Of a DNA stretch of 64,000 nucleotides, positions 52,140 to 63,860 are shown piece by piece. Location of the stretch: the NCBI GenBank assembly GCA_025782575.1, contig JALGYY010000028.1, positions 62,001 to 126,000 of the forward strand, given 5' to 3'. Under the pieces are notes generated by a model. It was not told where the DNA came from. It saw only the letters and a program-made list of their open reading frames with translations, and ran no database searches. This DNA comes from a bacterium. Lineage in GTDB: Bacteria > Orphanbacterota > Orphanbacteria > Orphanbacterales > Orphanbacteraceae. Numbering within the stretch: the stretch's first letter is position 1; every line of letters starts with the position of its first letter. Position numbers and translations under genes: made by a program.

Positions 52140-52341
52140 ATTAAGATGGTCCGGTCGCACATGAAAGCCCTAAAAGATCATTTCATCCTCTACAAAACCA
52201 GAGCCTCCGGGATACCAGGATCGTATCTGAGCATTGCGCGCGTGGCTGTAAATCCGTAGCTTATGTCGGGTGTCAAATATGACGGCCTTGGTAAAGTCGC
52301 CGATTCCGCATATTTTCGACAGAGAAGAAGGAGGTACGGTC

Positions 52342-52866
52342 ATTAGCAAGCGACATGAATTCAACCGGGTGTTGAAGTTCTTTGCGGTTGGGCTGCAGGT
52401 CATCATGTTTTCTGCGATCCTATTCGGATGTGGAGAAGACAAGAAGACCACGGCCCCGACCGCGTCGACCCTGACTCTGAGCAAAGCAGATGTTCTGGTG
52501 GATGGGGAGTCCGTGAATGGTAAGATCCTCCCCCGTGATCATGGAATGAAAGTCAGTACGCGCTTCGAGGCCGTATTGACAGTTCCGGATGGTGTCATCG
52601 AGTCCGGCGCGGTCTGGATCCACTACGAGCGCCCCGGAAGAATGAGCATGATGCACGATACGGGAACGTTCATGCTTCATGACGACGGCACACACGGAGA
52701 TCTGATTCCGAACGATGGTGAATACTGCTACGAAGACTCAGTGGGCACCTACGGCTGTCATGGAATGGAGAATCCGGAAGGTGAATATCAATACAATTGC
52801 TACGGTGTCGATGAAGACGGGCATGAAACCAATCACATCAATCTCCGTGTGACTCTCGTAGAGTAG
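52342..52866 (+). CDS. Lipoprotein of unknown function, possibly started at an ATT codon
   Basis: About 174 residues. The only strong ribosome site, AAGGAGGT (52328-52335), stands six bases before ATT at 52342. From there the protein begins SKRHEFNRVLKFFAVGLQ and reaches the lipobox LFGC, a textbook lipoprotein signal. The in-frame GTG 52270 and ATG 52279 lack such sites and would add an odd N-terminus. The mature part has a beta-rich domain with metal-suited His/Met/Asp clusters (RMSMMHDTGTFMLHDDGTHG). Family unknown. Confidence 0.6.
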   Translation: MSKRHEFNRVLKFFAVGLQVIMFSAILFGCGEDKKTTAPTASTLTLSKADVLVDGESVNGKILPRDHGMKVSTRFEAVLTVPDGVIESGAVWIHYERPGRMSMMHDTGTFMLHDDGTHGDLIPNDGEYCYEDSVGTYGCHGMENPEGEYQYNCYGVDEDGHETNHINLRVTLVE

Positions 52867-53059: not shown

Positions 53060-53704
53060 ATGGATCCTCTGGAAATTATCGCTGCCACGGCGGACCCTTC
53101 GTTTGCGACAGACGAAGGTGGTCGCGTTGTAATCTGGAACCCGGCGGTAGAACGTCTGCTCGGCTACAGAGCCCAGGACGTCCTGGGCCGGTCTTGTCAT
53201 GAGGTCATCTGCGGCCGGGATATATTCGGAAACCGCTTCTGTGTCGAACTCTGCACGATCATGAGCATGGTTCAGCGTGGTGAAGGGATCCGCCGGTTCG
53301 AACTGGATGTCCGAAAGTCATCAAGCGAGGTCTTTCGCGCGTCAATCACAATTGTTGTGATACCGGGGCCGCGAGAATCACAGTTCACCATCGTTCACAT
53401 CATCCTCCCTCTTGAAGGGGATTCGGCCCGATCGGCCGTTCCGGTCGTTGGTCCTGAACCCGGGTTGTCCATTCCGATTCCTGACGAAGGCGAGTCGCTT
53501 ACTGAGCCGGTCTCGCCGCTGACGGCACGAGAACTCGAGGTACTTCGTCTGATGGCCAAAGGGACGAGTACCCGCGAGATCGCTGACGCCCTGTTCATCA
53601 GTATTGCCACCGTCCGGAACCACGTTCAGCACATTCTGAGCAAGCTCGATGCTCACAGCAAACTCGAAGCAGTAGCCCTCGCTCTTCAGAATCGCCTCAT
53701 CTGA
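53060..53704 (+). CDS. PAS-LuxR transcriptional regulator with four clustered cysteines
   Basis: 214 residues. Residues of about 5-115 are a PAS domain (ATADPSFATDEGGRVVIWNP, AVERLLGYRAQDVLGRSC). Inside it, C46-x4-C51-x9-C61-x3-C65 (CHEVICGRDIFGNRFCVELC) could bind a metal or Fe-S cluster or act as a thiol switch. Residues of about 150-208 are a LuxR/GerE helix-turn-helix (LTARELEVLRLMAKGTSTRE, VRNHVQHILSKLDAHSKLEA). No receiver domain. It stands just upstream of the electron-transfer operon, in the same direction, with a palindrome between them, and is its probable regulator. Confidence 0.88.
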   Translation: MDPLEIIAATADPSFATDEGGRVVIWNPAVERLLGYRAQDVLGRSCHEVICGRDIFGNRFCVELCTIMSMVQRGEGIRRFELDVRKSSSEVFRASITIVVIPGPRESQFTIVHIILPLEGDSARSAVPVVGPEPGLSIPIPDEGESLTEPVSPLTARELEVLRLMAKGTSTREIADALFISIATVRNHVQHILSKLDAHSKLEAVALALQNRLI

Positions 53705-53719
53705 CACTATTTCCTGGGA

Positions 53720-53737
53720 ATGATGCATTTGCATCAT
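53720..53737. promoter_or_regulatory. Palindrome upstream of the cytochrome-porin operon
   Basis: A perfect 18-base inverted repeat, ATGATGCA-TT-TGCATCAT, lies 16 bases after the PAS-LuxR stop codon and 94 bases before the cytochrome-porin start. Size and symmetry suit a dimeric LuxR-type regulator. It is followed by AT-rich DNA in which no clear sigma-70 boxes stand out. Operator function is inferred. Confidence 0.5.
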
Positions 53738-53831
53738 GATTTTGATTGATTTGGCGGATGGTAATGGTGTCAAACACCCCCGATATTGGATACAGGAGCA
53801 ATGCGATGTATCCAGAACCGAGGGAGTAAAA

Positions 53832-55343
53832 ATGAGTTATTCGCGACGCTTGAAATACAACGCTTTCGCCGGATTCCACCTGTGGGGGATGGCCTTCATT
53901 CTTGTCTGTACCGCGCTCTGGACGAGTCCCGCCGAAGCCACTCCGGCGTTTGCCCGGAAGTACGGAACCAGTTGTCTGACGTGCCACATCGTCTATCCTA
54001 AGCTGAACGCCTACGGAAATGCCTTCCGGCTCCTTGGTTACCAATTACCTGATGAGACCGAGGACATGATCAAGCAGCCCGATACCAAATTGGGGGCCGA
54101 GGCGTACAAAAGAGTTTGGCCGGATGCCGTCTGGCCGAACTCCATCCCCTCCAGCCTCCCCTTCGCCCTCGCGACTGAATTCTTGGTGCGAAGCAGCTCT
54201 GAAGCTGAGGGCGGACCCGATGTCAACAGTGACTTCCTCTTTCCCTCGGGCACGGAAATAATCGCTGCCGGCACAGCGGGCGACAATATCGCCTACTTCG
54301 GAGAGATCGCTTTTGAAACCGAAGTCGAAGAGGGGAGTTTCGAGAGCAAAGCATTTATCCCGCATATCGATATTCGTTTTGTTCGACTGATCAAGAATTC
54401 GCCCGTCCTGAACGTCAAAGTCGGCCTGTTCCAACCTGAGATGGTAGTTGCCTTTGACCATGCACGGCGGCTGACGATCGCCAACTACGACGCCATGTTC
54501 GGTGTATCTACTGCCCAGCCGGGTGGCGGTTCTGAGGTTGGTGGTGGCGGGCACCACGGCGGGGGAGGAGGCATATCACTTCCAGCTGTCGCCCGCGGGT
54601 TAGAGTTCTATGGCGTCGCTGCCCAACGTTTCCAGTGGTCCGCTGCCGTCGTAAACGGTTTCGAACCGGGCGTGGAGACATTCGACGCTAATTCAGGTAA
54701 GGACCTGATGGGGAGGATCGCCTACAAGTATGGCGGTATGGCTCTCGACGGGTCGAATGCAACAACGTATACGACGAGCTCGAAGAACTGGCGAGAGCGC
54801 TCCATTCAGGTCGGCATATTCGGTTATCGCGGAGACGGCAAGGGGGTGCTTCTCAACGCTCCGGCGGCTCATGAAGACGAACACGATCTCAAGCTCGCCG
54901 CCGATGACCCCCCGACGGTTGTGGAAGACGAAGATTTCACCCGAGTCGGAATCGATTTCAATCTCTTCTTCGGCGATCTCAATCTTTTTGGTGCCTATGT
55001 CCACGGCGAAGACGACCTTCGTGATCCGACGGCGGGATCGGGGGACGACCACGAGGATGATCATGTTGAGAAGGTCAGCAACGAGGACGAATTCTTCGGG
55101 ACATTTGAATACGATGCGTTCTTCCTCGAGGCTGACGCCGTTCTGCACTATCCGTGGCTGCAAGGAATTCTGCGATACGAAATGGTCGATTTCCCCGACA
55201 GAGACATCGACAAATACGAGAAGGGTATTTTCTCCGTCGTGGCCCTGGTCAGGGCAAACGTCAAAGCGATCTTTGAGCATGACAGGGATCTGAATGAGTC
55301 AGAGAACTGGGACCTGTGGTGGGGAACCGCGATCGCCTTCTAA
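53832..55343 (+). CDS. Cyc2-like monohaem cytochrome c / outer-membrane porin fusion
   Basis: 503 residues from ATG 53832, five bases after AGGGAG. The signal peptide ends near AEA (residue 36). One c-haem site follows at C48-x2-C51-H52 in ATPAFARKYGTSCLTCH, then YPKLNAYGNAFRLLGYQLP, close to the N-terminal pattern of Cyc2-type iron oxidases. The remaining 400 or so residues are alternating beta-strands ending in WWGTAIAF, with the C-terminal Phe expected for BAM insertion. Three loops are unusually rich in Gly/His or Asp/Glu/His. It would carry electrons across the outer membrane. Electron donor and direction are unknown. Confidence 0.78.
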   Translation: MSYSRRLKYNAFAGFHLWGMAFILVCTALWTSPAEATPAFARKYGTSCLTCHIVYPKLNAYGNAFRLLGYQLPDETEDMIKQPDTKLGAEAYKRVWPDAVWPNSIPSSLPFALATEFLVRSSSEAEGGPDVNSDFLFPSGTEIIAAGTAGDNIAYFGEIAFETEVEEGSFESKAFIPHIDIRFVRLIKNSPVLNVKVGLFQPEMVVAFDHARRLTIANYDAMFGVSTAQPGGGSEVGGGGHHGGGGGISLPAVARGLEFYGVAAQRFQWSAAVVNGFEPGVETFDANSGKDLMGRIAYKYGGMALDGSNATTYTTSSKNWRERSIQVGIFGYRGDGKGVLLNAPAAHEDEHDLKLAADDPPTVVEDEDFTRVGIDFNLFFGDLNLFGAYVHGEDDLRDPTAGSGDDHEDDHVEKVSNEDEFFGTFEYDAFFLEADAVLHYPWLQGILRYEMVDFPDRDIDKYEKGIFSVVALVRANVKAIFEHDRDLNESENWDLWWGTAIAF

Positions 55344-55359
55344 GGAGAGGAACAAAAAC

Positions 55360-55956
55360 ATGAAACCCAACATCAAACTCGGCTTGACCGTACTTGTTGC
55401 TGCTCTGGCGCTGGCATCAGGGGCCAGCGCGGGCTCCCTTGTCGGAAAGGTGATCTGCAAAGGTCTTCGCAGCAGTGCGAACGCCATTGTCTACGTTGAC
55501 GTAATCCCCGGAAGGACATACGAAGCACCGGAAGCCCACGCCCTCGTGGACCAGAAGAATATGGTGTTCGAACCTCATGTTCTGCCGGTAATCGAGGGTA
55601 CATCAGTCGACTTCCTGAACAGTGATCCGGTGTTACACAATGTTTTTTCGCCCGACAAATGTGCTCAGAAATTCAATCTGGGGAGCTGGCCGCAGGATGA
55701 GAAGCGCAGCTTCACTTTCGAAGAGCGGTGTGTTTCTACCATTCTTTGCAGGGTACATCCCGAAATGGAGGCCTATATCCTTGTCGTCCCGACGCCCTTT
55801 TATGCGGTAACGGCAGAGGATGGAACGTTCTTCATTGCGGACGTTCCCGACACGGTTCTGACAGTGAAGGCCTGGCACCCGAAGCTCAAGGAACAGGATC
55901 TCGAGGTTCTGGTCGCGGGAGATAGCGTCTCGGTGGAGTTCGTACTGAAACGCTAG
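55360..55956 (+). CDS. Secreted cupredoxin (MauL-like blue copper protein)
   Basis: 198 residues from ATG 55360; the ribosome site AAGGAGAGG overlaps the preceding stop. Signal peptide about 1-24. Type I copper ligands are visible: His93 (DPVLHNVFS) and Cys130-x2-His133-x2-Met136 (TILCRVHPEMEAYILV). The C-terminal 60 or so residues form a carboxypeptidase-regulatory-like beta domain (FYAVTAEDGTFFIADVPDTV). MauL-like cupredoxins are periplasmic one-electron carriers. Its place right after the cytochrome-porin suggests it shuttles electrons between that protein and inner-membrane cytochromes. Confidence 0.85.
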   Translation: MKPNIKLGLTVLVAALALASGASAGSLVGKVICKGLRSSANAIVYVDVIPGRTYEAPEAHALVDQKNMVFEPHVLPVIEGTSVDFLNSDPVLHNVFSPDKCAQKFNLGSWPQDEKRSFTFEERCVSTILCRVHPEMEAYILVVPTPFYAVTAEDGTFFIADVPDTVLTVKAWHPKLKEQDLEVLVAGDSVSVEFVLKR

Positions 55957-55965
55957 TGGAGACGT

Positions 55966-57837
55966 ATGATGGGGGAGCGGGTTAATCGCGAATGGCTCAA
56001 GAGCAATTTCCCTTGCCACGCTGCGTGTCCGGTAGGGACCGAAGCGGGACGGTATGTCGCTCTCATCGCGGAAGGACGATACCGGGAGGCGTACGCCGTC
56101 GCCCGCCGCCCCAATCCGCTGGCGTCCATATGCGGCCGTATCTGCTCTGCTCCGTGTGAGAGCGTCTGCCGGCGGAGCGAGGTCGATTCGCCGGTAGCGA
56201 TTCGAGCGCTGAAGCGGTTCATCACCGAACGGTTCGGGGTGGAAAGCATGATCGACCTGGAGGTTCTTCGCGAGATTTATGGAAAGCGCGGGGTGCAGCA
56301 TCCAGACGACAGAGTCGCCGTCATCGGAGCCGGCCCCGCAGGACTTTCCGCCGCCCATGACCTTGCCTTGCGCGGTTATCCTGTCACTCTTTTTGAAGCC
56401 CAACCGGTTGCCGGAGGCATGCTCCGGCTCGGCATTCCCGAGTACCGCCTCCCTAGAGAGCTTATCAAACTCGAGGTCAACGCGATTCTCTCCCTCGGCG
56501 TCGATCTGCTCGTCGGTCAGCGGCTCGGGCGCGACTTTTCCATCAGCAGTCTTCGGGAGCAGGGTTATAAGGCGATCTTTCTCGCAGTGGGCGCGCAACG
56601 CAGCCGGGACCTCCAGCTACCAGGTGTCGACCTGGACGGTGTCATGAAGGGTGTCGAATTTCTTCTGAATGCCAATATGGGCTACCGGGTGGAACTGGGG
56701 GATAAGGTCGTCATCCTCGGCGGAGGCAATGTCGCCATTGATGTAGCTCGTATGGCGTTACGCTCCAATCTACCGGAGGACGCGATCAATCCCAGTATCA
56801 ACATCGTAACGGCGCTCGACGTCGCCCGTTCGGCCGTTCGATTCGGCGCCAAGGAGATTCACGTCGTCTGTCTCGAGTCACAGGAGGAAATGCCGGCGGC
56901 TCCGGAAGAGATCGAAGAAGCAGGTCGCGAGGGAATCATCTTTCATCATCGCCGTGGTCCGTCTCGCATCCTGGGGCAGAATGGCCGCGTCACCGGTCTC
57001 GAGACAGTAGAATGCGTTTCTGTCTTCGACCAGCATGGCAAGTTCAATCCCCGTTTCGCGGAAGGGAGCGAGCTTTCCATGGCCGCTGACACCGTTATCA
57101 TGGCGATCGGACAGGTCGCCGATCTCTCATTCCTGGAACCGGATGACGGGATCGAGATCACCCCCATGAAGACGATCGGCATAAACCACGAGACATTGGC
57201 GACGAGTGCTCCCGGGGTCTATGCGGGTGGCGACGCCGCTTTCGGGCCGCGGATCGCCATCGAAGCTGTTGCCGACGGTCGCCGTGCCGCAACCTCAATT
57301 CATGAGTATCTGCGAGGATCGACTGAGCCGGCAGAGGCGGTGGAGGTCATTCTGCGGCCCCTTCCAGGGTTCAAGCGCGAACTCGACTATGAGGCCCTCC
57401 CCCGGCAGAACCCTCCGAAGCTCCCTATCGCCCGGAGAGTCGGCATCGCCGAGGTGGAGCAATGTTACACCGAGGAAACGGCGCGACGCGAAGCCTCACG
57501 CTGCTTCCGCTGCTGGATCAACACCACTTTCCGCGAAGATTTCGTGACGGGAAGCGAGTGCATCCTATGCGGGGGGTGTGCTGACGTTTGCCCGGAAGAC
57601 TGCATCGAGTTCGTCCCGGTTTCGGAAGTGTCTGCGGATCCTCTCTTGCTGGAGGATGCCGTCGCGGAATTCGGAGAAGCTGCGAATTCGCTCTTCGAGG
57701 AGAACGCTGTCGGCACGGTTCTAGTCAAGGACGAGACGGCGTGCATTCGATGCGGCCTCTGTGCCGCACGTTGTCCGGCCTCGATCATCACAATGGAGGA
57801 GTTTATTCTGGAGGATCGATCGTATGGAACCGCATGA
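55966..57837 (+). CDS. GltD/NfnB-like FAD oxidoreductase with added 2[4Fe-4S] ferredoxin domain
   Basis: 623 residues. The N-terminal Cys pattern of GltD-type Fe-S domains is present (FPCHAACPVG, SICGRICSAPCESVCRR). FAD site VAVIGAGPAGLSAAHDLALRG at about residue 117; second nucleotide site VVILGGGNVAIDVARMALR at about 248; FAD C-terminal motif GVYAGGDAAFGPRIAIEAVADG. Two ferredoxin motifs follow: CILCGGCADVCPEDC and CIRCGLCAARCPASI. It lacks a signal, so it is cytoplasmic. The gene overlaps the Rieske gene by 14 bases, which implies a functional tie to the quinol:cytochrome c complex, perhaps linking NAD(P)H to it. Confidence 0.9.
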   Translation: MMGERVNREWLKSNFPCHAACPVGTEAGRYVALIAEGRYREAYAVARRPNPLASICGRICSAPCESVCRRSEVDSPVAIRALKRFITERFGVESMIDLEVLREIYGKRGVQHPDDRVAVIGAGPAGLSAAHDLALRGYPVTLFEAQPVAGGMLRLGIPEYRLPRELIKLEVNAILSLGVDLLVGQRLGRDFSISSLREQGYKAIFLAVGAQRSRDLQLPGVDLDGVMKGVEFLLNANMGYRVELGDKVVILGGGNVAIDVARMALRSNLPEDAINPSINIVTALDVARSAVRFGAKEIHVVCLESQEEMPAAPEEIEEAGREGIIFHHRRGPSRILGQNGRVTGLETVECVSVFDQHGKFNPRFAEGSELSMAADTVIMAIGQVADLSFLEPDDGIEITPMKTIGINHETLATSAPGVYAGGDAAFGPRIAIEAVADGRRAATSIHEYLRGSTEPAEAVEVILRPLPGFKRELDYEALPRQNPPKLPIARRVGIAEVEQCYTEETARREASRCFRCWINTTFREDFVTGSECILCGGCADVCPEDCIEFVPVSEVSADPLLLEDAVAEFGEAANSLFEENAVGTVLVKDETACIRCGLCAARCPASIITMEEFILEDRSYGTA

Positions 57838-58303
57838 AGATAAGAACAAAGGCGATCTTTCGCGACGGAAGTTCTTCCAGACGGCGGGAATCACGGCTTG
57901 CGCGCTTGTCTCAGGGGGAGCATCGATCCTGGGATTTGATTTCCTTCGCCCCCGCGTGCTCTTTGAACTTCCGACCAAGTTCACCCTTACTCGCCCTGAT
58001 GCCATCGAAGTCGGATCGGTCATAACGGACGAGCCGCACCACGTCTATGTGGCCCGCTCTTCCCATGGTTTTCGAGCCCTCTCTTCTGTATGCACACACC
58101 TCGGTTGCATTACGCGCTACAGCCCGGATGAGGGGATCATCGCGTGCCCCTGCCACGGCAGCAAATTCGCGCTCGACGGGGAAGTGATCGCCGGTCCGGC
58201 GCCTCGGCCGCTCCCCTGTCTCCAACTGGATCTCTCCCCGAGCGGGTTGATAGTCGTGGATACATCGATCGAAGTGCCGCAGGAAACGGTATTCAAGCTC
58301 TAA
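57824..58303 (+). CDS. Rieske [2Fe-2S] protein
   Basis: 159 residues from ATG 57824, GGAGG upstream, within the 3' end of the flavoprotein gene. A Tat-like signal ([20 protein letters not shown]) doubles as membrane anchor. Cluster ligands: CTHLGC and CPCHGS. The residue that is Tyr in high-potential Rieske proteins (CPCHGSxY) is Phe here (CPCHGSKF), which lowers potential and fits a menaquinol-oxidising complex. It transfers electrons from quinol at the Qo site to cytochrome c. Confidence 0.94.
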
Positions 58304-58313
58304 GGAGCATGAT

Positions 58314-59045
58314 GTGAAATTGGAAAAAATGATCACAGGTAGCCGCGTGTGGCGCTCGATCGTACGCCACGGGGTGGAGCCGACGAACAGGAATCGTGTT
58401 CTGACAGTAGTTCAGAATGTTTTCCTTCACCTTCATTCCGCCAAGGTGCGTCGAAGAAATCTGGAGTTCTCCAGCACATACTATCTCGGGGCCGTCTCGC
58501 TGATCCTCTTCGCGATTCTTGTCGGTACCGGGATCGTTCTGATGATTTACTATCACCCTTCTGTACCACAAGCCTACAATGACATGAAGGAACTCAAGTT
58601 CGTCGTAGGCAGCGGTATGTTCCTTCGCAATATGCACAGGTGGGCTGCTCACGGTATGGTGATCGTCGTCTTCCTCCACCTTCTTCGTGTTTTCTATCAC
58701 AGAGCGTACAAACCGCCGCGGGAGTTCAACTGGGTTGTCGGCATTGTCCTGCTGCTCATGACTCTGCTCCTCAGCTATACCGGCTATCTTCTTCCGTGGG
58801 ATCAGCTCGCGTTCTGGGCGGTATCGGTCGGCACGAACATGGTGAAAGCTGTGCCCGTACTCGGGGACAGGATCCGCTATCTCCTTCTCGGAGGGAACGT
58901 CGTCGGGGAGAGCGCGCTTCTTCGTTTCTATGTGCTTCATTGCGTGATCCTTCCCCTTGCGCTCACTATCGGAGTGGGGGTTCATCTCTGGCGCGTACGG
59001 AAGGATGGTAGCGTGGCCGGATCGTCCGGGAGGAAGCGAGGATGA
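58314..59045 (+). CDS. petB: Cytochrome b6-type subunit (N-terminal half of cytochrome b)
   Basis: 243 residues from GTG 58314. Four membrane helices. Haem b ligands are in [20 protein letters not shown] (helix B) and in [20 protein letters not shown] (helix D), where 14 residues separate the two His, as in b6f rather than bc1 proteins. [20 protein letters not shown] is the Qo-side cd region. It binds two b haems and quinones in the inner membrane. The stop overlaps the next start by four bases. Confidence 0.93.
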
Positions 59046-59755
59046 GAAAGGAACCGTCATCGAGCCAGGAACTCCGGAAGTCTGACGATGCAAGAGGGAT
59101 GCCGCGCCGGATCGCACTCGTCCGGCGGGAAGCCCCCGCCCAATTGCTCGAAGATCGGAGCGAACTCGTCACGACCGCACCGCACCTGCTGCTCCGTGAG
59201 GTCATCGTCTTCCAGATATGCGTGATCGTTCTCGCGATCGTCTCGATATTATTTGACGCTCCTCTCGAGGGTATCGCCGATCCCGAACACACGCCGAACC
59301 CGGCGAAAGCCCCGTGGTATTTCCTCGGACTTCAAGAGCTGCTCCACTACTTCCCCCCCATCGTTGCCGGAGTGCTGATTCCCGGTCTCGTCGTCCTCGC
59401 AATAGGTGTGATGCCCTACTTCCGGGTGAACTGGGAGTCAACAGGGCTCTACGAGCAACCGTGGAAGAAAACCATTGCCCTGGTAAGTGGTATCGTCGCC
59501 GTCTCCGTGGTGATCTTCGTCATATTCCACACCTGGGTGGTGCTCGTGCCCACGCTGGTTATTTATGGGTTGATGATTCTGCCCGGCCTCCCGTTCTGCC
59601 CCGCTCGCTTGAGGGGCGTTCTCGGACGTGTTCACCTGGCCGATTGGATCATGACCTGGTTCGTCATCGTTGCAATTCTCCTGACGTTGACGGGTGTTTT
59701 CTTCCGTGGCCCCGGATGGAGCTTTGTCTGGCCGTGGCAGGGAGGTACCCAGTGA
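59042..59755 (+). CDS. petD: Cytochrome b C-terminal half (subunit IV-like)
   Basis: 237 residues. A charged N-terminal 50 residues precede the conserved DPLE-like segment ([20 protein letters not shown], then [14 protein letters not shown]), the Qo-site ef loop. The usual PEWY motif is APWY here, lacking the Glu. Three to five membrane helices follow, more than the three of chloroplast subunit IV. With the preceding gene it makes a complete split cytochrome b. Its stop (59753-59755) overlaps the start of the octahaem cytochrome. Confidence 0.88.
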
Positions 59756-61752
59756 TGAGGAACGACGGGGGTGGTCTCGATCGGATCTGGTTCTGGTTCG
59801 CGGCGATGAGCTTTGTCTTCCTGGTGGTGCTCGCCATCTCTCCCATCAAAGATTATTTTCGAGAGTATCGGAAGTATCAGATTGACTATCGGGATCAATT
59901 ACTCGAACGAGCCGGCACATCGAGGGAGCTTCGCGACGCCAATCGTGAGGGTGTGCGAATTCGACAGATCTGGAATCCTGACTATCCCAACCGCGTCGAC
60001 CGATGCACCTCGTGCCATCTGGGTGTCGAAAACCCAGGCATGGCGGATGCATCTCCGCCGCTTCGCACTCACCCGATGACGCCGCACACGCCAGAGCAAT
60101 TCGCATCCTTTGGCTGTGTCACATGTCATCGCGGTCAGGGGCGTGCAACGACAATGATGGATGCACATGGGCTCGCTTCCGACTGGGCGACACCCATGCT
60201 TCCGCTCCGTTATACGGAAGCTTCCTGCGGCACCTGCCATATGGACGAGGAAGTGCCCGAAGCAAACCTTCTCTCTCGAGGCCGGACGTTAATGGCGGAA
60301 CTCGGGTGCTATGCGTGCCACGAGGTCGATGGACATGAGGCGTGGGAAAGTGACGCCCCCGATCTGGACGGTCTGTCCCGAAAGACGTCTCCCGAGTGGC
60401 TGAGAACATGGATTGCTGACCCGCAGAGCGTCCGTCCGACAACGAAAATGCCATACATCCAACTCGGGCAGAGCGAAATCGATTCTCTCGTCGCGTTCCT
60501 CTGGACGCGGCCGGCCGGTGAAGACGATTTTCTGCAGGACGAGGAAAACCCGGCCGGCGATCCTGACCGGGGGGAGACGCTGTTTCGGGAATCACGATGC
60601 ATCTCCTGTCACACCGTTGATGGTCGAGGAAACGGAAGCGCGGCGGAGCTTTCCGGCATCGCTTCCAAGGTCAACAGGCGCTGGCTCATAGAATACCTCG
60701 AAAACCCGCACGCGCTTCAGCCGGAAACCAAGATGCCGCGCTACTATTTCACGCGGCAGGATCTCCTCGATCTAAGCCAATATTTGATGGACGAACTCTG
60801 GGATCCGGAAGCACCTCCTCCTGTAGAGCAAGCATTCCGCCCGCCCCAGAAGATGGTGGAAGGGGGGATGCGCACCTTCCGGAAATACGGGTGCTCCGGT
60901 TGCCATCAGATCTCCGGATTGACCGATCGATCGAGGATCGGTCCTGAACTGACCGGTATCGGCCGAAAGCCTGTGGATCAGCTTGACTTCGGACGGCGCG
61001 ACGATCTTCCGCGAACGCTTCACGACTGGATCGGGGCGAAGGTCTCGAGTCCTCGATCATTTCGGGATGGTCTCAAGATGCCGCAGTTCATACTGGAGGG
61101 GGAGGATCTGACTGCTGTGATTACTGCGCTCCTCTCGAACACGGGGGAAGTCATCCCCGAGGAATACCGGGTAGAGAGGGTGATCGCGAACTATGATCCT
61201 CCCGGTCGTTTCGGTGAGCTGGTCGATCGCTACCGGTGTCTCTCCTGCCATGAGGTGGAGGGTGTCGGGGGGGACATCTCGACCGCACCACTTACTGTCG
61301 AGGGAAGCCGCGTCCAGGAATCGTGGCTGAAGAATTACCTTCTCCGACCTTCGACGATTCGTCCGATCCTGACGGATCGCATGATTCCTCTCCGGATGCC
61401 TGAGGAAGACGCGGCATTCCTCGCGAATTTCATGCAGAACGTCTATGTGGATGACGACATCCCCGCCCGCCTCTTTTCAGAAGAACCCGATCCTGCGAAT
61501 GTTCGCCGGGGTAGTCACCTCTTCTACGAGAGGTACGGTTGCCAGGCGTGTCACATGATCGATGGGCGAGGTGGCTATTTCGGGCCACTCCTCGATGAAG
61601 CGGGGGTTCGTCTGAAGCCGGGATGGGTCTACTGGTGGGTTCTCGGCTCACAGAGATGGCGCGACGATGTCCGGTGCCCCGACTACGGAGTACCAGATAG
61701 AGACGCCTTGGATCTTGCGGCCTTCATTTCATCACTAGGGAGAACCCCATGA
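59755..61752 (+). CDS. Membrane-anchored octahaem c-type cytochrome
   Basis: 665 residues from ATG 59755, nine bases after GGAGG (GTG 59752 is an alternative). One N-terminal membrane helix (WFWFAAMSFVFLVVLAI). Eight CxxCH sites: CTSCH, CVTCH, CGTCH, CYACH, CISCH, CSGCH, CLSCH and CQACH. Four or five repeated class I cytochrome c units (GxxLFxxxxCxxCHxxxG...TKMPxxxL) make up the rest, separated by Pro-rich linkers. It replaces cytochrome f or c1 as electron acceptor of the complex and could act as a periplasmic wire. Overlaps the next gene (ATGA). Confidence 0.9.
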   Translation: MRNDGGGLDRIWFWFAAMSFVFLVVLAISPIKDYFREYRKYQIDYRDQLLERAGTSRELRDANREGVRIRQIWNPDYPNRVDRCTSCHLGVENPGMADASPPLRTHPMTPHTPEQFASFGCVTCHRGQGRATTMMDAHGLASDWATPMLPLRYTEASCGTCHMDEEVPEANLLSRGRTLMAELGCYACHEVDGHEAWESDAPDLDGLSRKTSPEWLRTWIADPQSVRPTTKMPYIQLGQSEIDSLVAFLWTRPAGEDDFLQDEENPAGDPDRGETLFRESRCISCHTVDGRGNGSAAELSGIASKVNRRWLIEYLENPHALQPETKMPRYYFTRQDLLDLSQYLMDELWDPEAPPPVEQAFRPPQKMVEGGMRTFRKYGCSGCHQISGLTDRSRIGPELTGIGRKPVDQLDFGRRDDLPRTLHDWIGAKVSSPRSFRDGLKMPQFILEGEDLTAVITALLSNTGEVIPEEYRVERVIANYDPPGRFGELVDRYRCLSCHEVEGVGGDISTAPLTVEGSRVQESWLKNYLLRPSTIRPILTDRMIPLRMPEEDAAFLANFMQNVYVDDDIPARLFSEEPDPANVRRGSHLFYERYGCQACHMIDGRGGYFGPLLDEAGVRLKPGWVYWWVLGSQRWRDDVRCPDYGVPDRDALDLAAFISSLGRTP

Positions 61753-62237
61753 GGAAGACCACCAGGATCCTCGTCTATCTCGCTGTCGGGTTCGGTTTTG
61801 TGTTGGCCTGGCTCCCGGCAGGACGAAGTCTTCTCTTCGGAAGCGATCCGACAGACATAGACATGAACGACTCTCTTCAGACTGAAGACATTATTACGGA
61901 TGATGCCTGGAGAACGCCCATTCCGGACTTAGGTTACCGCGAGCGGGAAGGCCGGGCTCTCTTTCGCCACTATTGTGCCCTGTGCCACGGGCAGAGCGGC
62001 GAGGGGGACGGGTTCAACGCCTACAACCTCGATCCTAAGCCGCGTGATCTCTCCGACCATGAGTTCCAGACGGCACAAACAGACGAGGACCTTGCGGAAG
62101 TCATCGGGGGTGGTGGTGGCGATGCCGGTCTCTCGAACGCCATGCCCCCTTGGGGAAAGGTCCTTGGTGAGCGGAAGATCGGCTATGTCATCGCCTACTT
62201 GAGGACGCTGGCGGACTCGTTGCCGGAGACCGACTAG
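61749..62237 (+). CDS. Monohaem class I cytochrome c
   Basis: 162 residues from ATG 61749. A signal or anchor helix (ILVYLAVGFGFVLAWLPAG) is followed by one c-haem site, GRALFRHYCALCHGQSGEGDGFNAYNLDPKPRDLSD in parts, and the likely Met ligand in NAMPPWGKVLG near the C-terminus. It is a probable periplasmic electron carrier, the last gene of the operon. Confidence 0.92.
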   Translation: MRKTTRILVYLAVGFGFVLAWLPAGRSLLFGSDPTDIDMNDSLQTEDIITDDAWRTPIPDLGYREREGRALFRHYCALCHGQSGEGDGFNAYNLDPKPRDLSDHEFQTAQTDEDLAEVIGGGGGDAGLSNAMPPWGKVLGERKIGYVIAYLRTLADSLPETD

Positions 62238-62305: not shown

Positions 62306-62335
62306 TTGACAGATACTATACTGGGGTATTATATT
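62306..62335 (+). promoter_or_regulatory. Promoter with embedded RcnR/FrmR-type operator
   Basis: A consensus -35 TTGACA (62306-62311) and a -10 read as TTATAT (62329-62334, 17-base spacer) or TATATT (62330-62335) flank ATACTATA-CTGGGG-TATTATAT (62313-62334). AT-rich inverted arms around a G-tract are the known operator form of RcnR, FrmR and InrS repressors. Its place inside the promoter supports autorepression relieved by metal. Binding is inferred. Confidence 0.72.
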
Positions 62336-62372: not shown

Positions 62373-62651
62373 ATGGCACACCTCATTCGCGACAAGAAGA
62401 AGCTTCTCAATCGAGTACATCGAATTCGGGGCCAGCTCGATGCCATTGAGCGAGATCTGGAAGAAGGGCGCGACTGCACATCGACACTGCAGACGATCGC
62501 GGCCTGCCGTGGAGCGATGAACGGCCTCATGTCGCAGGTACTGGAAGGGCACATCCGGTTCCACGTAGTAGATCCGGACTTGAAGCCCACTTCTGAGCAG
62601 GCAAAAGCCGCACAGGAATTGATCGACGTGATCCGGACCTACCTGAGGTAG
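62373..62651 (+). CDS. RcnR-like metal-responsive repressor (CsoR/RcnR family)
   Basis: 92 residues, all helical. The family core is RVHRIRGQLDAIERDL and AACRGAMNGLMSQVLEGHI. The four Ni/Co ligands of E. coli RcnR are all in place: His3, Cys35, His60 and His64. That set argues for nickel/cobalt sensing rather than Cu (CsoR) or formaldehyde (FrmR). The start follows AAGGGG. The gene has an operator-like site in its promoter and heads the efflux genes that follow, six bases to the next ATG. Confidence 0.9.
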   Translation: MAHLIRDKKKLLNRVHRIRGQLDAIERDLEEGRDCTSTLQTIAACRGAMNGLMSQVLEGHIRFHVVDPDLKPTSEQAKAAQELIDVIRTYLR

Positions 62652-62657
62652 TTGAAT

Positions 62658-63860
62658 ATGAAGCACTGCATTTGGTTCGCAATCGCAATCGCCACAGCCC
62701 TGCCGGCTGAGGCCAACGAAGGACGATTCTCTGAGGAGCGGTTCCTGGCGCCGTTAACAGAGGGGCACCCGGCGATCGTAGCGCTCACGGAGCGCCTTGC
62801 GGGCGCGGAGGGTGAGCGACGGGAGGCAAGGGTGATGAACCCGGAGTTCGGATTTGACCGAGAGGCGCCGGACGGAGCGGCCAATCAGTCAGTTTTCCGG
62901 TTGAGCTGGAAGCCGCCGTTGGATGGACGTAGCGGGTTGCGGAAGCGTGCGGCAGACGCCGGTGTGCGTGCGGCCACAAGTGAGTTCGACTGGGCAAAGT
63001 TGCAATTACGGGAAGAGCTTCGAAGCGCATACGCCGAGTGGGCGCAGGCGGCAGAGCGGCGCGATCTCTTGTCCGCGCATGTGACCGTGATGAAGCGGTT
63101 AGCCGAGCGGGCAAGAGTGCGGGCGGAAACCGGGGAAGAGTCGGGGCTCGGTGCGCGGAGGCTCGCGCTTGCCGCTACCGAGGTGCAGAGCAAATTCGCT
63201 CAGGCCGAAGCAATGTTCGTTCTCGGAGAAGCAAAAGTACGGGTTGTTTACCCGGAGCTCCGACAGGGCGTTCAGCCGATTCGGCCTGCACTGCCTGTGG
63301 TGCCACCGAAACTAGACTGGTCGAATCGGCCGGACATTGAAGTGAGGCGTTTCGAAGTGCAACAAGCGGAGTTGAAGAAGCGGTTGAGTGGCCGATATTT
63401 GGAATTTCCAGAGCTCACCGCGGGATGGACTCGTTTTGACGAGGCACCCGGCATAGTTGAAGGTCCCGTGCTCGGAGTGAGCTGGAGTGTACCGATTTTT
63501 GATCGTAATCAGGGTAGACGCCAACAGGACGCTCGAAAAGTAGTTATCGCTGAGGCCAGACTCGAGCTTGCAATCGCTACAGCGCAGGCAGAGTTGGAAG
63601 CGGCGCATGGCGCCTACGCGCTGCTCCGGGCGGCGGCCACCGAGGTGACGACCGTTACGGAAGACGCAGACGGACTTGTGGAGAGCGCAACGGCCTCTTT
63701 TCAGGTCGGTGAGAACACGCTGACGGATCTGATGGAGACACTTCGCTCCGTTCTAAGCAGTCAGATTACTGCAATGGAACTTCACTACAACGCACTTGAG
63801 GCGCACCGTCACTTGGAACTGAGCGCGGGAAGGTCTCTGAGTACCGGAGGTATGGAATGA
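62658..63860 (+). CDS. TolC/CzcC-family outer-membrane efflux protein
   Basis: 400 residues from ATG 62658, nine bases after GAGG (TTG 62652 is an alternative). Signal peptide about 1-20. Two OEP repeats of long coiled helices (LREELRSAYAEWAQAAERRD, and LELAIATAQAELEAAHGAYALLRAA in parts) alternate with beta segments (VLGVSWSVPIFDRNQGRRQQDARKV in parts). It forms the outer-membrane tunnel of an RND metal pump. Overlaps the adaptor gene by four bases. Confidence 0.9.
   Translation: MKHCIWFAIAIATALPAEANEGRFSEERFLAPLTEGHPAIVALTERLAGAEGERREARVMNPEFGFDREAPDGAANQSVFRLSWKPPLDGRSGLRKRAADAGVRAATSEFDWAKLQLREELRSAYAEWAQAAERRDLLSAHVTVMKRLAERARVRAETGEESGLGARRLALAATEVQSKFAQAEAMFVLGEAKVRVVYPELRQGVQPIRPALPVVPPKLDWSNRPDIEVRRFEVQQAELKKRLSGRYLEFPELTAGWTRFDEAPGIVEGPVLGVSWSVPIFDRNQGRRQQDARKVVIAEARLELAIATAQAELEAAHGAYALLRAAATEVTTVTEDADGLVESATASFQVGENTLTDLMETLRSVLSSQITAMELHYNALEAHRHLELSAGRSLSTGGME

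Follow-up and report, generated by a model that had tools for sequence, protein, structure and literature searches.

Cyc2-like cytochrome-porins of the outer membrane and complexes that join a Rieske protein and a cytochrome b to an NAD(P) oxidoreductase (Rieske/b-NAD(P) complexes) are each known kinds of electron-transfer machinery. Here, we describe a run of eight genes in which the two stand together, at positions 53832-62237 on the + strand of the window, a 64,000-nucleotide stretch of a draft bacterial genome assigned to the Orphanbacterota. For the outer membrane, the closest described proteins are the Cyc2 of iron oxidisers (PMC8406198; PMC7029218), which have a characteristic motif, one CxxCH haem site, a PxL, a length of more than 365 amino acids (aa) and a 16-strand barrel with an OprP/OprO-like fold; the motif, AxPxFAR[QK][TY], is unique to Cyc2 according to Keffer et al. 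(PMC8406198), who list it together with the single CxxCH, the PxL, the barrel and the fold. In the Acidithiobacillus rus operon (PMC10654088), the logic runs from the porin haem through a cupredoxin to an inner-membrane complex; Cyc2 is partnered there by Cyc1 and a cytochrome oxidase, with the aa3 oxidase lying within the operon and the bc1-type complex (pet operon) and the NAD link encoded in others.

For the inner membrane, the closest relatives are the complexes Kuste4569-4574 and Kustd1480-1485 of the anammox bacterium Kuenenia stuttgartiensis (PMC12954380), which combine a Rieske protein, a b6-like cytochrome b, a subunit IV described with five transmembrane helices instead of three, an NAD(P) oxidoreductase and a hexa- or octahaem cytochrome c. 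Kartal and colleagues, and Hauser et al. (2025; PMC12954380), proposed that the oxidation of quinol by these complexes sends electrons both into a high-potential branch and to NAD(P)+; the Rieske potentials were measured at +303 and +335 mV, and the same paper states that no driving reaction has been proposed for Kustd1480-1485. A third comparison is offered by the extHIJKLMNOPQS genes of Geobacter (PMC5877670; PMC6148476), which, like the operon considered here, hold an outer-membrane porin, multihaem cytochromes, a Rieske protein (ExtO) and a cytochrome b (ExtP) in one cluster. As described, the ext cluster has neither an NAD(P) flavoenzyme nor a cupredoxin, and its porin-like protein ExtI adjoins the rhodanese ExtH and the pentahaem ExtKL, an arrangement that differs from ours.

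In the window, the genes encode, from 5' to 3', a monohaem cytochrome-porin (53832-55343), a cupredoxin (55360-55956), a flavin adenine dinucleotide (FAD)/Fe-S NAD(P) oxidoreductase (55966-57837), a Rieske 2Fe-2S protein (57824-58303), a cytochrome b6-type subunit (58314-59045), a subunit IV-like protein (59042-59755), an octahaem c-type cytochrome (59755-61752) and a monohaem class-I c-type cytochrome (61749-62237). The intergenic distances in that order are 16, 9, -14, 10, -4, -1 (or -4) and -4 nucleotides, so that no gap exceeds 16 nucleotides and four junctions overlap; these values use revised starts for the porin (ATG 53832), the cupredoxin (ATG 55360), the Rieske protein (ATG 57824) and the octahaem protein (GTG 59752 or ATG 59755). 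The first-pass annotation had described a PAS-LuxR regulator followed by a nearly gapless, one-directional operon of these eight genes, and all of them are indeed present on the + strand; its split cytochrome b, octahaem, monohaem and monohaem-porin assignments agree with the Pfam domains and with the CxxCH counts (one each in the porin and the final cytochrome, eight in the octahaem protein). The region from the regulator to the last gene, 53060-62237, corresponds to G000:C5:115060-124237 in a draft genome of 4.88 Mb in 49 contigs, 95% complete.

The 503-aa porin shows every published Cyc2-like sequence and predicted-fold feature that was tested. Its N-terminal signature, ATPAFARKY-GTS-CLTCH-IVY-PKL (ATPAFARKYGTSCLTCHIVYPKL; 53943-53996, with the haem site CLTCH at 53973-53987), places AxPxFAR[QK][TY] upstream and PxL downstream of a single CxxCH; it exceeds the Cyc2 length threshold of at least 365 aa, and a signal is judged present from the hydrophobic N-terminus. 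The AlphaFold2 model, built for the protein without haem from an alignment of 73 relatives, shows 16 long strands (predicted TM-score 0.81; mean predicted local distance difference test score, pLDDT, 79), and Foldseek places OprP (2o4v) first and OprO (4rjw) tenth among its matches, while a sequence search of the PDB with the porin profile returned no match. The motif, the model and the Foldseek matches together lead us to reject a porin that falls outside Cyc2 or lacks a barrel. Following the haem domain, the porin consensus (A3) has the conserved segment EAYKxVxPxAIWP. Three loops, at residues ~217-247, 345-356 and 400-420, are rich in Gly/His or in Asp/Glu/His (GGGGHHGGGG, HEDEHD, DDHEDDH) and could possibly lie at the surface and bind metal; the model has low confidence at the first two.

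The adjoining 198-aa protein, predicted to be periplasmic with a C-terminal beta-sandwich (pLDDT 95), matches amicyanin and plastocyanin in Foldseek. Its probable copper ligands, H93, C130, H133 and M136, are across 62 sequences either invariant or conserved to at least 90%, and by this ligand set (His, Cys, His, Met) and the modelled fold it is a type-1 copper cupredoxin with a putative copper site. At the other end of the operon, the octahaem protein has one predicted N-terminal transmembrane segment, the membrane anchor, and keeps eight CxxCH in all 22 same-order relatives described below; an HAO-type enzyme is not supported, its matches being Cytochrom_C/CBB3 domains. The final cytochrome matches PF13442 (7e-10).

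Between these lies the quinone-level module. The 623-aa flavoenzyme (Pyr_redox_2, Fer4_20, Fer4_7) has a GltD/NfnB architecture with C-terminal [4Fe-4S] motifs, whose cluster cysteines are invariant in 37 homologues, and no predicted transmembrane segment, as fits a cytoplasmic protein; its top PDB match is NfnABC (9bov/9bp5, 2e-94), which is also the reported structural match of Kuste4570 (PMC12954380). The Rieske protein (PF00355), with an SRRKFF Tat-like motif, has as its top PDB match 9rk4 (4e-28), followed by a b6f Rieske at 5e-16; the data table of PMC12954380 gives 9rk4 as Kuste4569 and 9rk3 as Kustd1480. The cytochrome b is split, the b6-type subunit matching PF00033 (3e-44) with the haem ligands H108, H122, H209 and H224 as in b6, and the subunit IV-like protein matching PF00032 (4e-5). 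In the latter, hydropathy marks transmembrane segments at 53-71, 108-125 and 204-217, and a broad stretch at 150-177 could hold two more, giving about five. The best NCBIfam matches of the two are ExtP (2e-76) and ExtQ (4e-16), and the window proteins stay below the cut-offs for ExtP (256 of 290 bits), ExtQ (60 of 150) and ExtS (88 of 100), so by score they are not members of the Geobacter Ext selenite/tellurite operon.

The inner half thus has the features of the anammox type: a four-helix b6-like cytochrome b with a separate subunit IV, an NfnB/GltD-like subunit, a multihaem cytochrome (with eight CxxCH, in place of cytochrome f) and a Kuste4569-related Rieske protein. To this set the window adds the Cyc2-like porin, the cupredoxin and the monohaem cytochrome, in a different gene order, and unlike the anammox sets it has no HAO-like octahaem protein among the operon's open reading frames (ORFs). 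A further difference concerns haem cN, which is included in the anammox models: alignment to b6 places Tyr57 of the window cytochrome b at the haem cN cysteine site (the Cys35 equivalent), which suggests that with regard to this haem the complex is a variant and not a plain member of the anammox type. With regard to Cyc2, the difference lies in the partners, a Rieske/b-NAD(P) complex here as opposed to Cyc1 and a cytochrome oxidase in the rus operon. The first-pass annotation knew of no described system with this gene set; for the union of a Cyc2-like porin with a Rieske/b-NAD(P) complex we likewise found no description in the open-licence literature, an earlier one elsewhere being possible, whereas the inner half, flavoenzyme included, is of a known kind (PMC12954380). 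What appears to be new is the joining of a Cyc2-like outer half to an anammox-type inner half without the haem cN cysteine.

We asked how widely this combination is conserved by scanning the contigs of named genomes with a profile from the porin alignment (window plus G001) and with the peptide patterns [TI]PAFARKY and [AS]EAYKRVW, and by examining the best 80 loci; adjoining genes played no part in the selection, and motif conservation among the matches is partly by construction since the patterns came from porin motifs. Of these 80 loci, 78 have a cupredoxin close to the porin, 30 have the flavoenzyme and Rieske/b genes, and 22, spread over eight phyla, have all eight genes in the exact order of the window: Acidobacteriota (11), Ignavibacteriota (three), Bacteroidota (three) and, with one locus each, Calditrichota, Zixiibacteriota, Gemmatimonadota, Eiseniibacteriota and Nitrospirota. 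As many contigs end within the gene set, the figure of 22 is a minimum and does not give a prevalence. A rearranged version of the set is found in Myxococcota (L128). Protein identity among the same-order relatives ranges from 25 to 74%. Overall, Candidatus Polarisedimenticola svalbardensis comes closest (L078; 54-72% over the six proteins compared, 56% for the porin) and also has the PAS-LuxR gene. The full-set carriers include three named Geothrix strains, namely G. terrae SG184, G. oryzisoli SG189 and G. campi SG10. In the Eiseniibacteriota locus (L125), the flavoenzyme and cytochrome b are 70% and 74% identical to those of the window and the porin only 30%, so the outer part appears to evolve faster or to be exchanged. 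The gene content, folds, cofactor motifs and the conservation of set and order are what the analysis shows. Chance adjacency is rejected by the exact order and content in 22 loci of eight phyla, and the porin and cupredoxin are indeed kept together with the Rieske/b genes in relatives, a check that the first-pass annotation had proposed.

A tree of 50 cytochromes b points in the same direction: 26 sequences from loci with both flavoenzyme and porin form one clade (support 99/95), whereas those of L140 and L081 are placed elsewhere, where the tree is poorly resolved. Of the 36 FAD-linked rows, one has the haem cN cysteine, as against 10 of the 14 FAD-less rows. Because the trait is clustered on the tree, the association is a correlation and does not amount to independent repeats: about two changes of the FAD label suffice, leaving just two independent pairs, and the loss of the cysteine is weak as independent evidence for an NAD(P) link. 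The extra haem b proposed for Kuenenia was considered as a discriminator and rejected, since the His before helix A (H39) occurs in 49 of the 50 rows, with or without a flavoenzyme. Among the FAD-linked rows, L115_8085 represents a second, distant cytochrome b close to the L115 locus, where a Bacteroidota metagenome-assembled genome has a second, highly divergent Rieske/cytochrome b pair (L115:7596-8400) ~2 kb upstream of the porin operon.

The two halves also have lives of their own. In the same-family genome G001 (L017, G001:C27), the porin lies on the strand opposite to the rest of a locus that encodes a cupredoxin, a pentahaem cytochrome, a molybdopterin oxidoreductase, an FeS protein, NrfD, a small transmembrane protein and tetrahaem, octahaem and monohaem cytochromes. 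The porin and cupredoxin accompany such a pentahaem-Mo module in nine of the 80 loci, mostly from Myxococcota and including Anaeromyxobacter terrae, and most of these also have FeS and NrfD genes; in three of the 80, Rieske/b genes occur without the flavoenzyme. Because relatives replace Rieske/b by the molybdopterin/NrfD module, the porin-cupredoxin pair is a transferable outer half that joins alternative quinone-level modules.

We propose that the eight genes form one trans-envelope electron-transfer system that carries electrons outward, from menaquinol to an external oxidant, a reading that we hold to be on balance somewhat probable. The Rieske/b6-type complex would oxidise menaquinol in the inner membrane; one electron would pass from the Rieske protein to the anchored octahaem cytochrome, on to the monohaem cytochrome and cupredoxin, and thence to the porin haem on the periplasmic side, which would deliver it to an oxidant outside the cell, be it Fe(III), Mn(IV), oxidised humics or another cell. 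At the cytoplasmic face of cytochrome b, the docked flavoenzyme would exchange the other electron with NAD(P). We infer the single chain and its outward course, the type of quinone, the coupling to NAD(P) and the order of carriers, which follows the anatomy: flavoenzyme, cytochrome b, Rieske, octahaem, monohaem/cupredoxin and porin haem. That there is one system is argued by the exact order in 22 loci, the cupredoxin in 78 of 80, the 26-member cytochrome b clade, the Cyc2 motif and barrel, and the nearness of the Rieske protein to Kuste4569 and of the flavoenzyme to NfnABC, as reported for the anammox complexes; the exchange for a Mo/FeS/NrfD module in relatives is consistent with input at the quinone level. 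The outer-membrane-to-quinone system envisaged by the first-pass annotation is thus well supported as an inference, its function being putative.

The direction of flow is the principal point of contention. Electron export is favoured over Fe(II) uptake because RuBisCO is found in none of the 23 carrier genomes (the window's included), other CO2-fixation markers are rare (ACS in three of the 23, an ATP-citrate-lyase domain above cut-off in one), and Geothrix is described as an Fe(III)-reducing genus, G. fermentans being so listed (PMC6295460) and the carriers here being G. terrae, G. oryzisoli and G. campi; as the genomes are drafts, the missing markers are weak evidence. The nearest porin/Rieske/b cluster, Geobacter ext, also serves reduction (PMC5877670; PMC6148476), and deletion of extHIJKL lessens Fe(III) citrate reduction (PMC6148476). 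Several observations weigh against the outward, one-system reading. In a Geobacter mutant of extI, no clear defect with Fe(III) citrate was seen (PMC5877670), which makes the ext analogy a loose one; the porin was modelled without haem and its model has low-confidence loops; and the halves are separable, with the flavoenzyme-Rieske-b-multihaem core occurring without an identified porin in seven loci, the same-family G004 among them, and the porin-cupredoxin pair occurring without the core. Moreover, the experimentally tested Cyc2-type proteins, whose motif and fold the window porin shares, oxidise Fe(II) (PMC8406198), and haem-copper oxidases (COX1) are present in 22 of the 23 carriers, so that uptake towards O2 is possible.

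These last two points speak for the opposite course, in which the porin haem would take electrons from Fe(II), Mn(II), reduced humics or another cell and pass them through the cupredoxin and cytochromes to oxygen reductases and, driven by the proton motive force, uphill through Rieske/b to quinone and NAD(P). Such an uphill branch, coupling Cyc2, a cupredoxin and bc1, is described in A. ferrooxidans (PMC10654088). With RuBisCO found in none of the 23 genomes and other CO2-fixation markers scarce, the carriers would have little use for NAD(P)H made uphill; a search of the operon found no cytochrome oxidase gene, and Geothrix is among the carriers. We therefore regard inward flow as possible yet rather doubtful, and not as the equal of export that the first-pass annotation had made it.

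A different use of the porin would be to admit a small soluble substrate, either a periplasmic oxidant or a metal oxyanion, with the haem as a docking site. Geobacter ExtI provides an analogue, affecting selenite/tellurite reduction without being a wire, and its cluster likewise holds a porin, a Rieske protein and a cytochrome b (PMC5877670), with ExtP and ExtQ as the nearest NCBIfam relatives of our cytochrome b and subunit IV. However, ExtI is described as porin-like with no haem reported, whereas in the window the porin carries a haem motif that is conserved and lies next to a cupredoxin gene, and we consider this account improbable. Least probable is a mere juxtaposition of a porin-cupredoxin pair (e.g., for metal or redox sensing) with a separate Rieske/b-NAD(P) complex, for which one may cite the loci with either half alone and the sensor-like ORFs beside the pair in L092 and L099, and which conflicts with the exact order in eight phyla, the near-gapless spacing and the single clade of 26 cytochromes b.

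Returning to the outward reading, a bolder version of it would be quinol bifurcation of the kind proposed for anammox. The porin and cupredoxin would supply the high-potential branch with an outside acceptor, and the exergonic exit of one electron via the haem-porin would drive the other uphill to NAD(P)+, in at least eight phyla; we put this forward tentatively and consider it unlikely as it stands.

Several observations concern the surroundings of the operon and of its relatives. The large ORFs that follow the porin-cupredoxin pair in L092 and L099 resemble membrane sensors or chemoreceptors in sequence appearance, which suggests a sensing use of the pair there. Upstream in the window, the PAS-LuxR (GerE) protein (53060-53704, + strand; PF00196 9e-20, PAS 7e-11), probably the regulator of the operon, ends 127 nucleotides before the porin start, and a homologue lies directly upstream of the porin in L078 and in the Holophagae loci L084, L086-L089 and L098. 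Its PAS domain (53194-53265) and those of its homologues have common Cys residues in the pattern CxxxxxG.D..GN.[YF]C...C, and may bind a cofactor or sense the redox state. Between the two genes, a near-perfect palindrome, ATGATGCATTTGCATCAT (53720-53737), is a possible operator; no matching palindrome was found in L078, and the Geothrix regions upstream of the porin (L088, L089, L098) have TGATGCATTC...AGAATGATGC-like repeats that could possibly represent an operator shared with the window. Farther upstream, between the ATP synthase epsilon gene and the regulator, 52270-52866 encodes a protein of 198 aa that has a signal resembling those of lipoproteins and matches choice-of-anchor X weakly. 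The operon probably ends at 62237, as a separate promoter-like match (TTGACA-18-TATATT) at 62306 precedes the next genes. Behind it, at 62373-63860 (and L015:1-4599), lie a CsoR/RcnR-type metal-sensitive repressor (PF02583) and an outer membrane efflux protein (PF02321), followed just beyond the window by ORFs of ~482 and ~1042 aa, in size like an RND metal-efflux pair; this group was not seen adjoining the operon in L078. The host genome has two COX1 genes and two more cytochrome b genes in longer ORFs (G000:C7:72917 and G000:C13:538854), so the complex of the operon does not provide its sole cytochrome b.

These observations link the Cyc2-like porin, whose gene is widely used as a marker of Fe(II) oxidation, with a complex tied to quinol and NAD(P) in organisms that show few signs of fixing CO2, so it may be a mistake to annotate every Cyc2-like gene as an iron oxidase. 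They also offer a candidate exergonic branch for the Rieske/b-NAD(P) complexes. For eight phyla, many of them known here only from metagenome-assembled genomes, a pathway of extracellular electron transfer can thereby be put forward for testing, and its carriers include named Geothrix strains. If bifurcation were true, at least eight phyla would have in common a form of extracellular respiration with NAD(P)H as a direct product.

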